A stretch of DNA of 64,000 nucleotides from an uncultured Muribaculaceae bacterium (GTDB taxonomy: Bacteria; Bacteroidota; Bacteroidia; Bacteroidales; Muribaculaceae), in assembly GCA_944321875.1 (NCBI GenBank), contig CALUMX010000004.1, positions 1 to 64,000 on the forward strand, written 5' to 3'. Made by a program: the position numbers and the translations under genes. Within the stretch, counting starts at the first letter, position 1, and every line of letters begins with the position of its first letter. Shown in pieces: positions 15,617 through 22,094 of this stretch. Under the pieces are notes generated by a model. It saw only the letters and a list, made by a program, of their open reading frames with translations, did not search any database and was not told the DNA's origin.

Positions 15617-17431
15617 TTAATCGTCGGAATAGTGGCGCAATACCCGACGATAGGAGTTGAATATTTTTGACTTGGAGACAAAACCGATATATTTCCCGTT
15701 TTCTACCACCGGTAGGTTCCAGGCATTGGTTTTGTCAAAGAGATTCATCACGTTTTCCATATTGTCTCCGATTTCGATTTTGGCAGGAGGCATGCACATG
15801 AATTTCCGCACATACATTTTGTCGTAAAGCGCAGGGCGGAACATGATATTACGGATGTCGTTGAGCAACACTACACCGAGAAGCGTGCCTTTGCTGTCGG
15901 TTACAGGGAAGAGATTGCGTTGCGACTCGGATATGACCTGTACCATCTCGCGCAGGCTCATTTCCGGGTGTACCTCAATAAAATCCTTCTCAATGACACT
16001 ATCCATCTTCAGCAGCGTGAGCACGGCCTTATCCTTGTGGTGCGTGAGCAATTCACCGCGTTTGGCAAGACGCATGGTGTAAATGCTGTAGGAGAGGAAC
16101 ATGCGGATGGTGAAATAGGAGATGGCGGAAACCATCAGCAACGGCAGGAACAGTTGATAGCCTCCGGTCATTTCTGCCGTTAAGAAGATGCCCATCAACG
16201 GAGCGTGCATAACTCCGGACATAACGCCGGCCATTCCCATCAGGGCAAAATTCTTGCACGACAACTCCATTCCGGGGAATAGTCCCAGCGTGTTGACAAG
16301 GTAGGCAAAGAAGAATCCGGTCATACATCCCACATAAAGAGAGGGTGCAAATGTACCGCCGACACCGCCGGACCCGTTGGTCGCGCTGGTAGCGAATACC
16401 TTGGTGAGGATAATCATCAACATGAACAACAATACAAACCAGACATTATTGTGGAAGCTGTAGAACACACTGCCGTCGAGCAGCGTAGCCGGGTCACCGT
16501 TCAAGAGATTGGTAATGGCTTCGTAGCCTTCTCCGTAGAGCGGAGGGAAACAGAAAATCAGTCCGCTAAGGATGGCAGAGCCGATGGCAAATTTTACCCA
16601 ACGTTTTTTTATTTTGGAGAGGAAGCCCTCAAAATAACCAATCATTTTGGTAAAGTAGAGGGAGGTGAAGCCACAAACAATACCCAAAATAATAACATAA
16701 GGGATGTTGTTGGTGATAAAAGCCTCGCTCTGGTCGAATGTAAATTCCGGACTGTAGCCGGTAAATATGTAGGATACGGTTGCTGCGGTTATCGACGATA
16801 CAAGCAGAGGCATCACGGATACGGTCGTGAGGTCAATCATCAGCACCTCGATGGCAAAAAGCATTCCGGCAATCGGGGCTTTGAAAATGCCGGCAACACC
16901 GGCAGCCGCGCCACTTCCGACCAGCATCATCAGAATCTGCGGGGAAAGGCGGAAAAGGCTTCCCAGATTGGAACCGATAGCCGCTCCTGTGTTGACAATC
17001 GGGCCTTCGGCTCCGACGGAACCTCCGAATCCGATGGTGATGGAGCTGGCAACTACAGAGGTGTAGGTGTTGTGAAATTTCAACCGGCTCTTGTTTTGTG
17101 ATATGGCGTAGAGCACACGGGTAACACCGTGCGAAATATTGTCCTTAACGACATATCTTACATAAAGGCTGACAATCAGAATGCCGATTACCGGATAAAG
17201 CAGGTAGAGGTAGTTGGCTCCTGAAATCGTGAAATGATTGGTCAGCATGGAGGCAATGGCATGTATCAGAAATTTCAGCAACAAGGCTGCGAATCCGGAA
17301 AATATGCCAATGAAGAAAGCCAGAATCAACAAAAAGGTTTTTTCGCTGATGTGGGCTTCCCGCCATTGCAGTACCTGCATGAGAAGCGCATTGGCTTTTT
17401 CCTGCAGCTGTGGTTTTGTTAAGATGTTCAT
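15617..17431 (-). CDS. ClC-family chloride channel/transporter with C-terminal CBS pair
   Basis: A 604-residue membrane protein: about 10-12 ClC helices (25-440) then two CBS domains (about 460-600; VIEKDFIEVHPEMSLREMV and KFMCMPPAKIEIGDNMENV begin them). The gating-Glu loop reads GGSVGAEGPIV, with Ala in place of the usual Arg, and the later loop is GVGGTFAPSLYVG, close to the canonical GxFxPxL filter. The Ser-containing GSGIP motif is absent; SHGVTRVL stands in its place. CBS domains often sense adenine nucleotides. Transport mode (channel or antiporter) cannot be told. It starts 3 bp after the sugar-transferase stop and precedes fmt. It is clearly distinct from the fluoride-type ClC at 20574. 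Confidence 0.92.
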   Translation of the reverse strand: MNILTKPQLQEKANALLMQVLQWREAHISEKTFLLILAFFIGIFSGFAALLLKFLIHAIASMLTNHFTISGANYLYLLYPVIGILIVSLYVRYVVKDNISHGVTRVLYAISQNKSRLKFHNTYTSVVASSITIGFGGSVGAEGPIVNTGAAIGSNLGSLFRLSPQILMMLVGSGAAAGVAGIFKAPIAGMLFAIEVLMIDLTTVSVMPLLVSSITAATVSYIFTGYSPEFTFDQSEAFITNNIPYVIILGIVCGFTSLYFTKMIGYFEGFLSKIKKRWVKFAIGSAILSGLIFCFPPLYGEGYEAITNLLNGDPATLLDGSVFYSFHNNVWFVLLFMLMIILTKVFATSATNGSGGVGGTFAPSLYVGCMTGFFFAYLVNTLGLFPGMELSCKNFALMGMAGVMSGVMHAPLMGIFLTAEMTGGYQLFLPLLMVSAISYFTIRMFLSYSIYTMRLAKRGELLTHHKDKAVLTLLKMDSVIEKDFIEVHPEMSLREMVQVISESQRNLFPVTDSKGTLLGVVLLNDIRNIMFRPALYDKMYVRKFMCMPPAKIEIGDNMENVMNLFDKTNAWNLPVVENGKYIGFVSKSKIFNSYRRVLRHYSDD

Positions 17432-20225: not shown

Positions 20226-20246
20226 TCTTTCGCTAAAAAATGATTT

Positions 20247-20281
20247 AGAGGTTGCATCAACAGGTGCAACCTCTTTTTTTA
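20247..20281 (+). terminator. Intrinsic terminator after rpsP
   Basis: AGAGGTTGCA and its complement (20265-20274) form a 10-bp stem with an 8-nt loop followed by a run of T residues, 22 bp after the rpsP stop. Confidence 0.92.
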
Positions 20282-20370
20282 TTCACGTTGGTAAGAGGCG
20301 AGCGGTCGCAAAAAAGAGAGATTGCTATCAAAAACAATCAAAGGAGCTTGCGTGAATATTGCAGAATACG

Positions 20371-20402
20371 TTTGTGTAAATTGGATAATAGTGCTATTTT
20401 TG
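20371..20402 (+). promoter_or_regulatory. Promoter of the fluoride-riboswitch/CLC-F transcript
   Basis: TTTG (20371-20374) and TATTTTTG (20395-20402) are separated by exactly 20 bp. Transcription should start near 20407-20410, immediately before the riboswitch aptamer at 20416. Confidence 0.88.
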
Positions 20403-20415
20403 CACGTTCTTAAAA

Positions 20416-20470
20416 GGGAATGGGACTTCCCTGTTATAAACCGCTGAATAAACAGCTGATAGTTCCTGTT
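20416..20470 (+). promoter_or_regulatory. Fluoride riboswitch (crcB motif) aptamer
   Basis: The RNA folds as in the Thermotoga fluoride aptamer. A first stem GGGA (20416-20419)/UCCC (20428-20431) closes an 8-nt loop AUGGGACU. A second hairpin GCUG (20443-20446)/CAGC (20453-20456) has a 6-nt loop. A pseudoknot pairs GGGACU (20422-20427) with AGUUCC (20461-20466), one G-U included. Key unpaired positions are kept: A20420 and U20421 (A6, U7), U20457 (U38), UGAU before the pseudoknot strand, A20459 with U20467 (the A40-U48 linchpin) and the AAAC linker before the second hairpin. It lies directly after a consensus promoter and upstream of a CLC-F-type transporter, the known regulon of this riboswitch. 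Comparison is from memory; a covariance-model search would confirm it. Confidence 0.85.
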
Positions 20471-20532
20471 GTGAGTTGGTTCTTTGACAAGAGAATTAAC
20501 AGGAGCTATCGCATCTTGTTCTTGTCTTTCTC
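20458..20532 (+). promoter_or_regulatory. Probable expression platform (competing terminator-like hairpin) of the fluoride riboswitch
   Basis: Bases 20458-20470 (GATAGTTCCTGTT) can pair with 20498-20510 (AACAGGAGCTATC): 13 pairs with one G-U. This helix uses the same AGUUCC strand the aptamer needs for its pseudoknot, so the two folds exclude each other. The 3' arm is followed by a U-rich stretch (TTGTTCTTGTCTTTCTC). A logical reading is that without fluoride the hairpin forms and terminates, while with fluoride the pseudoknot holds the strand and transcription continues. The U-tract is interrupted, so termination strength is uncertain. Confidence 0.65.
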
Positions 20533-20573
20533 TGTCAGGCTGCCTTCGTTGATTTTTATTATTAGAGAGATAT

Positions 20574-21854
20574 ATGAAAGAGAAGATTAGAAATTACATT
20601 CGTCAGACAAGGTTCGAACAAATTATTTTCGGATATATTCTTAAATGGATTCTCATTACGGCTGTTGTGGGCGCCTTGATTGGCTCCGCTTCCGCATTGC
20701 TGTTGTCATCGCTTAACTGGGCGACCTCCTATCGGGAAAGTCACATGTGGATTATTGCTCTTTTGCCAATAGCCGGACTGATTATCGGATTGATGTATCA
20801 TTATCTGGCCGGAACGGCGGTAAGAGGCAACAACTTTCTGATAGAGGAAATACATAGTGCTCACAATATCATACCATTTAAAATGGCACCACTGGTATAT
20901 GTCGGTACTGTTTTGACTCATCTGTTCGGAGGCTCGGCGGGTCGTGAGGGTACCGGCGTGCAGATGGGAGGAGCCATTGCCGATTTCATGTCCCGTATTT
21001 TCAAAATGCATCCTTACGACCGGAAAATAATGATACAGATTGGAATCGGGGCCGGATTCGCCTCCGTCTTTGGAACGCCTCTTGCCGGTGCTGTATTTGC
21101 ATTGGAGGTGATTATTGTCGGCCGGATGAGATACGATGCCATACTTCCTATTTTTTTAGCTTCATTTTTTGCCAACTATGCCTGTCATGCTTGGGGAATC
21201 CAACATACGATATACAGCATAACACAAGTCCCGCAACTTGGGGTGGATGTGCTTCTGTGGGTTTTGCTTGCCAGTCTGTTTTTCGGATTGACTGCCCGGT
21301 TGTTCTCCCGTTCCATCGAGTTTTGGGGTAGGGTGTCGAAAAAGTATGTGTCCTATGCTCCCTTCAGGCCTTTGTTGGGTGGCGTGTGTATTGCATTGTG
21401 CGTATGGTTGATGGGGACGACTAAATATATTGGCCTTGGTGTGCCGGTTATTGTCAGTTCCTTTACGGAGACGCAAATGTGGTATGATTTTCTGCTCAAA
21501 CTGATTCTTACGACGTTTACCATCGGAGTCGGATTCAAGGGCGGAGAGGTGACCCCGTTGTTCTTTGTTGGTGCAACCTTGGGTAGCGCTTTGTCTGCCA
21601 TCATCCCATTGCCTCTTTCGTTTATGGCAGGGATTGGCTTTGTGGCCGTGTTTGCCGGAGCTACCAATACGCCGATTGCCTGCACATTGATGGGTATCGA
21701 GCTTTTTGGCGTTGAAGCCGGCATGTATTTGGGTATAGCGTGCGTGGCTTCCTATTTGTTCTCCGGACATACCGGGATCTATACGGCGCAGATTGTGGGT
21801 AGTCCGAAACATATAGCCTATTGGAAATCGAAGAAGGGAACAACGATAGAATAA
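20574..21854 (+). CDS. CLC-F type fluoride/proton antiporter (ClC family)
   Basis: A 426-residue ClC-fold membrane protein without CBS domains. Its signature loops are those of the fluoride-specific CLC-F branch: RGNNFLIEEIH replaces the Ser-containing GSGIP anion-site motif, the gating-Glu loop is GGSAGREGTGVQMGG (Thr in place of the Pro of GREGP), and the later loop is GFKGGEVTPLFFVGATLGS instead of GGIFAPSL. CLC-F proteins expel F- from the cytosol in exchange for H+. Translation starts at ATG 20574 behind AGAGAGA. The 5' leader carries a fluoride-type riboswitch, which strongly supports the substrate. Monocistronic; a 240-bp gap separates it from carA. Confidence 0.92.
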   Translation: MKEKIRNYIRQTRFEQIIFGYILKWILITAVVGALIGSASALLLSSLNWATSYRESHMWIIALLPIAGLIIGLMYHYLAGTAVRGNNFLIEEIHSAHNIIPFKMAPLVYVGTVLTHLFGGSAGREGTGVQMGGAIADFMSRIFKMHPYDRKIMIQIGIGAGFASVFGTPLAGAVFALEVIIVGRMRYDAILPIFLASFFANYACHAWGIQHTIYSITQVPQLGVDVLLWVLLASLFFGLTARLFSRSIEFWGRVSKKYVSYAPFRPLLGGVCIALCVWLMGTTKYIGLGVPVIVSSFTETQMWYDFLLKLILTTFTIGVGFKGGEVTPLFFVGATLGSALSAIIPLPLSFMAGIGFVAVFAGATNTPIACTLMGIELFGVEAGMYLGIACVASYLFSGHTGIYTAQIVGSPKHIAYWKSKKGTTIE

Positions 21855-21870
21855 AATTGGCGTGTGGGCT

Positions 21871-21898
21871 TTGGTGTGGATAGGAGTTGGTGTGGATA
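21871..21898 (+). repeat. Direct repeat of a 12-mer downstream of the CLC-F gene
   Basis: TTGGTGTGGATA occurs at 21871-21882 and again at 21887-21898, a 16-bp period. It follows the CLC-F stop by 17 bp. No hairpin forms; the role is unknown. Confidence 0.55.
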
Positions 21899-21977
21899 AA
21901 GGTGGAATGAGCCGAATTTGACCGATATTTACAGCACAGTCAGCCATTCGGAAGGCATTTTTGCGGTTAAAATTACC

Positions 21978-22000
21978 TATTTCAAAAAAATATTGAAATA
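21978..22000. repeat. Inverted repeat upstream of carA
   Basis: TATTTCAA (21978-21985) and its complement TTGAAATA (21993-22000) are perfect 8-bp arms with an A-rich 7-bp spacer, about 95 bp before the carA ATG. Shape and place suit an operator (inference). A weak promoter follows: TTTG at 22033-22036 and TAATCTTG at 22054-22061, with 17 bp between. Confidence 0.4.
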
Positions 22001-22094
22001 AGTAAGGGAGGATTAGGGGAAAATCACTAATTTTGTATGGTTTTCTCGATCGTAATCTTGCAAACCCTGAATCTGTAAGTAATCACTAAGAAAT

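Follow-up and report, generated by a model that had tools for sequence, protein, structure and literature searches.

A predicted fluoride-responsive riboswitch upstream of a horizontally acquired clcF gene in an uncultured Muribaculaceae bacterium

Does a short RNA encoded near position 20,400 of a 64,000-nucleotide stretch of Muribaculaceae DNA (the window) sense fluoride, and by what means would it control the gene that follows? An earlier note, made from the sequence letters, had proposed a promoter, a fluoride aptamer and an alternative helix acting as a terminator. Our analysis makes it very probable that the element is a fluoride-ON riboswitch controlling a CLC-F exporter, in which a pseudoknot is set against a competing helix, and that the whole unit was acquired from a Phocaeicola-like donor; we infer the direction of switching and the binding of fluoride from the known class. 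The switch itself is well known; the tail of its expression platform is unusual here, and the history of transfer is clear.

In the mechanism that we favour, RNA polymerase would start just before the aptamer, and fluoride together with Mg2+ would lock the pseudoknot between 20422-20426 and 20462-20466, keeping strand 20458-20470 out of the competing helix and allowing expression of clcF. Without fluoride, strand 20458-20470 would be drawn out of the pseudoknot to pair with 20498-20510 in the competing helix, and expression would fall. Silencing at low fluoride may proceed by termination, as expected in the Bacteroides relatives that carry a U-tract, or at a later step. Transcriptional fluoride riboswitches of RF01734 (crcB motif), such as that of Bacillus cereus crcB, share the aptamer fold, the pseudoknot and the linchpin positions, and in them, too, the pseudoknot strand is captured by a hairpin further downstream (PMC11077080). 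Unlike those systems, the window carries no U-tract after the hairpin, and about 107 nt separate the pseudoknot strand from the start codon. Among the papers searched, none dealt specifically with a Bacteroides fluoride riboswitch.

Promoter, aptamer and exporter gene

The cmscan search proposed in the earlier note returned RF01734 at 43.4 bits, above the gathering score of 34 (E-value 6e-11 with 401 bases searched, 1e-8 for the 64-kb window). It is the sole Rfam family above its gathering score in the window, and a search of the host genome found one copy. As analysed here, the element is a genuine fluoride riboswitch and a member of RF01734, with fluoride binding predicted from the class. 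The two hairpins, the pseudoknot and the five bases named beforehand (A20420, U20421, U20457, A20459 and U20467) are all present; in our reading of the covariance model (CM) alignment, the linchpin candidates A20459 and U20467 stand at the positions of A40-U48, the linchpin of the fluoride riboswitch class (PMC11077080). The promoter also lies where it had been placed and is of Bacteroidota type: TTTG and TATTTTTG are spaced by 20 nt, and TATTTTTG fits the second element of the consensus TTTG / TAnnTTTG (PMC7366714). Most Phocaeicola-type relatives retain this -7 element at the aligned position. The coordinates of all features are collected in Table 1.

The exporter gene expected downstream was found as the next gene, starting about 100 nt after the aptamer. 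Its product is nearest to the solved CLC-type fluoride/proton antiporters 6D0J, 6D0K and 6D0N (E 1e-64; ClcA, E 2e-8), contains a GREGTG motif with the gating Glu, and matches PF00654 alone, with no CBS domain found. The closest solved structure, 6D0J, is that of a riboswitch-controlled CLC-F (EriC-F) and shares with the window protein the gating Glu in GREG(T/V), the GGEVTPLF motif and the upstream riboswitch, while its Met in the QGMN stretch is replaced by Asn in the window protein, as read from the alignment. Judged by its sequence, the product is a CLC-F antiporter rather than a chloride CLC, and fluoride export is predicted. On the opposite strand, 3 kb before the clcF unit (15617-17431, -), lies the gene for another CLC protein, which has two CBS domains. 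It is a different protein, probably of the chloride type, tied to clcF by family alone.

Table 1 Features of the riboswitch-clcF locus (window coordinates)
Feature	Position	Strand	Basis or remark
Promoter, Bacteroidota sigma-ABfr type	20371..20402	+	-33 TTTG 20371-20374, -7 TATTTTTG 20395-20402; sequence
Fluoride riboswitch aptamer, RF01734	20407..20475	+	cmscan
P1 hairpin	20415-20419 with 20428-20432	+	CM structure
Second aptamer hairpin	20443-20446 with 20453-20456	+	GCUG/CAGC in window; relatives mostly GCUA/UAGC
Pseudoknot	GGGAC 20422-20426 with GUUCC 20462-20466	+	sequence; one G-U pair
Competing helix	20458-20470 with 20498-20510; inner hairpin 20479-20485/20490-20496	+	MFE fold, covariation in 16 leaders
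Tail after helix	20511..20535	+	U/C-rich, no U-tract (GCAUCUUGUUCUUGUCUUUCUCUGU)
Candidate second competing helix 2:3	20478-20506 with 20518-20544	+	MFE with pseudoknot strand withheld; weak in window
Candidate start-proximal helix 3:4	20523-20531 with 20564-20572	+	p 0.10 in window
CLC-F fluoride/proton antiporter gene, 426 aa	20574..21854	+	Pfam PF00654, best PDB matches

Origin of the unit

The window CLC-F shares 91% identity with its counterpart in Phocaeicola (Bacteroides) mediterraneensis and 83% with the one in P. barnesiae; the neighbouring CarA is 77-79% identical to its counterparts in congeners and 68% to those of the two Phocaeicola species. Within the host family, RF01734 scored above the cut-off in two of 347 genomes, the window genome included; the family labels f1 and f20 are what place the host in a different family from the Bacteroides genomes. 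Among 60 relatives, no full CLC-F-like match to the window protein was found, the long matches having at most 30% identity, and one member of another family (G047) contains a short fragment 53% identical to it.

The borders of the unit are visible from both sides. In two congeners (G002 and G003; loci L106 and L105) rpsP directly precedes carA and there is no clcF, and their homology with the window stops at about 20227 and resumes at about 22021, leaving 20227-22020 as the rpsP-carA junction, empty in these congeners and filled in the window by the promoter-riboswitch-clcF unit. Homology with Phocaeicola takes in the promoter, the riboswitch and the gene (some 1.5 kb), from about 20371-20387 to about 21854-21860, and begins at 20371 in P. 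barnesiae; over the 200 bases upstream, no Phocaeicola homology was detected, a forced alignment giving 49%. Among plasmid records, none covers as much as 80% of the cassette. P. mediterraneensis (L009/L096) and P. barnesiae (L008/L097) carry direct relatives of the unit, with the same promoter, aptamer, helix and order of promoter, aptamer and clcF; by comparison, the window helix is longer by the GAUAG/CUAUC pairs and the neighbours, rpsP and carAB, differ. These sequence comparisons clearly indicate that the unit was acquired horizontally and inserted between rpsP and carA. The donor was most likely Phocaeicola-like, because the unit is present in several Phocaeicola species and rare in the host family, and we infer the direction of transfer from this distribution. 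A complete fluoride sensor-plus-pump unit has moved between Bacteroidales, and its site is empty in congeners. Some Phocaeicola of the caecigallinarum group (L010, L011, L012 and L013) have a close clcF, at 75-77% identity, although their genomes give no match to RF01734; in these the riboswitch was either lost or never joined the gene.

The competing helix and its tail

Both the pseudoknot and the competing helix can be written for the window RNA, and the strand GUUCC is common to the two; the 13-bp alternative helix proposed earlier exists and takes the pseudoknot strand. The minimum free energy (MFE) structure of 20409-20540 is the competing fold (-38.8 kcal/mol, z -2.97), and none of 200 shuffled sequences folded as well. 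MFE z-scores for the 3' part of the leader alone were uninformative. To compare leaders, 16 of the Bacteroidaceae type were taken from whole-genome searches and aligned without gaps through the shared strand. The inner 8 bp of the helix (columns 56-63 with 94-101) are kept in all 16, with both sides changed in four sequences at one pair and in six at another; examples are CCUGUU/AACAGG, CCUGCC/GGCAGG and CCUACU/AGUAGG. The helix scores 0.300 for covariation, compared to 0.197 +/- 0.017 for shuffled and at most 0.150 for slid alignments, and RNAalifold recovers the helix unprompted. The earlier note had looked to covariation in both folds, which was borne out for the inner helix; the pseudoknot pairs are kept in 16/16 leaders, with G-U/A-U variation at one pair, and as the aptamer hardly varies its own covariation is slight, P1 showing one compensatory change. 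The outer 5 bp are particular to the window and not conserved as a helix, the same columns holding the U's of the U-tract in relatives.

The same riboswitch arrangement precedes clcF, eno and crcB genes, and the competing fold is common among Bacteroidaceae-type leaders. Transcriptional fluoride riboswitches are known to be built in this way, with a hairpin overlapping the 3' strand of the pseudoknot (PMC11077080), and published work also describes covariation across entire fluoride riboswitches, including their platforms (PMC13273304). The competing fold is therefore ordinary rather than new.

The Bacteroides-type leaders before eno-clcF or crcB (L054, L067, L069, L070 and L072) have a near-identical aptamer and an orthologous competing helix. 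They differ from the window in a real U-tract, such as UUUUUAUAUUU, with T-scores of 2.4-4.6 (the value of 1.1 for the eno leader L076 is to be ignored, its tail having been misplaced by the scoring script), and in the eno leaders tested no downstream segment complements the competing strand. The stretch after the window helix, earlier called U-rich, does hold 14 U in 25 nt (20511-20535) but begins with GCAUC and is not a canonical U-tract: the T-score is 0.55 both for GCUAUCGCAUCUUGU after the inner helix and for GCAUCUUGUUCUUGU after the full helix, with two and three U, respectively, in the first 8 nt. Of the two marks of a terminator platform, the window has the overlapping hairpin and lacks the U-tract directly behind it. 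The simple terminator scan has no bearing on the competing helix, as that scan is limited to loops no longer than 8 nt.

The composition of the tail led us to reject a canonical terminator call for this helix, and any intrinsic termination here looks weak from the sequence. Rho-dependent termination found no consistent support (13 C versus 10 G in the first 60 nt after the inner helix of the window; of six relatives from the same group that were counted, three have more G than C). It is nevertheless possible, at somewhat less than an even chance, that the helix works as an intrinsic terminator despite its poor tract, with RNA polymerase stalled or released in the U/C-rich 20513-20535, perhaps through pausing or Rho. 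The abundance of U in the tail, the stability of the helix (-24.7 kcal/mol with the outer pairs) and the good U-tracts behind its orthologues in Bacteroides-type leaders speak for such termination. Against it stand the low T-score and the few U directly after the helix, the T-score of 3.1 for the rpsP terminator 200 nt upstream, by which a canonical U-tract does occur elsewhere in this genome, and the absence of a good tract from all seven Phocaeicola-type relatives as well (0.15-1.6). A platform that decayed after transfer, so that the RNA still binds fluoride while clcF is expressed near-constitutively, is improbable: it would account for the missing U-tract and for the divergence from P. 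mediterraneensis outside the aptamer (leader 75%, gene 79%, aptamer 96% conserved), but neither the aptamer nor the inner competing helix has been damaged, and outer pairs have even been added to the helix. We retain the fluoride-ON riboswitch as the preferred reading, in which the off-state may act by termination or later, since the U-tract is absent in the window and in the Phocaeicola-type relatives. The earlier proposal that fluoride stabilises the pseudoknot and blocks a terminator is supported for the aptamer, the clcF gene and the covarying competing helix; its termination step is doubtful, with the U-tract missing. Close relatives bearing the same aptamer on platforms with and without a U-tract provide a natural series for a change of control mode.

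Candidate helices downstream and related leaders

A later step could involve two further helices. In all eight Phocaeicola-type clcF leaders a downstream segment could form some 30 nt of pairing with the competing hairpin, at its loop and its 3' strand (helix 2:3), and this pairing and the anti-aptamer helix are mutually exclusive. Against shuffled sequences the duplex has p 0.06 in the window and 0.004-0.044 in the seven relatives; in five Bacteroides-type eno leaders the complementary segment is absent (p 0.16-1.0). As a group, own partners beat swaps between species (matched by 2 of the 5040 permutations, p 0.0004), although strand 3 of the window pairs better with strand 2 of other species. 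The p-values given here for 2:3 and 3:4 are all optimistic, the analyses having been chosen after the sequences were seen and the sequences being related. For the start-proximal helix 3:4, single-sequence p-values are suggestive (0.02-0.23 in six relatives), the group permutation test was not significant (p 0.07-0.11), and our models predict a start region nearly as open in one state as in the other; 3:4 was set aside on these grounds as a start-codon sequestering helix. Helix 2:3 was likewise set aside as a terminator, which the runs of U4-5 after it in four relatives (L098, L100, L101 and L102) would suit, as fluoride would then switch the exporter off.

From these pairings a relay acting once transcription has passed the helix can be drawn, which we consider doubtful for the window: fluoride would hold strand 1 (20458-20470) in the pseudoknot, strand 2 (20478-20510) would pair with strand 3 (20518-20544), and strand 4 (20564-20572) by the start codon would be freed for translation, whereas without fluoride 1:2 and 3:4 would form and translation would be blocked. 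The restriction of the complementary segment to the Phocaeicola-type clcF leaders and the preference for own partners favour it, as do the overlap of the 2:3 and 3:4 strands in each of the seven leaders with a candidate 3:4 and the coincidence of U-tract loss with the same group. Opposed to it are the lack of specificity of 2:3 in the window, the group result for 3:4, the nearly unchanged start openness and the U runs behind 2:3, which would fit a terminator of the wrong sign. The relay is a lead hinted at chiefly in the relatives, with the evidence weakest in the window. The broader proposal, that in Phocaeicola-type clcF leaders, the transferred copy included, a terminator platform has turned into a relay of mutually exclusive helices 1:2, 2:3 and 3:4 controlling a later step, probably translation, while the aptamer stayed unchanged, we regard as slightly less probable still. 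If true, a transcriptional riboswitch would have been converted to another control mode with the same aptamer.

Further leaders were observed alongside. The Bacteroides-type riboswitch precedes the gene for enolase (eno), a fluoride-sensitive enzyme, in L054, L066, L067, L068, L069 and L070, and a conserved GCUCAUGCA...UGCAUGGGC-like hairpin lies upstream of eno in leaders of this type; in three genomes (G341, G433 and G404) clcF is found about 1.5 kb from the riboswitch, after eno. In other Bacteroidales families, outside Bacteroidaceae, several RF01734 leaders (L002, L040, L049 and L050) carry, right at the start codon, a segment like AGGAGUUAUG that complements the AACUCCU strand of the pseudoknot, a layout suggestive of translational platforms in which the start codon is occluded.
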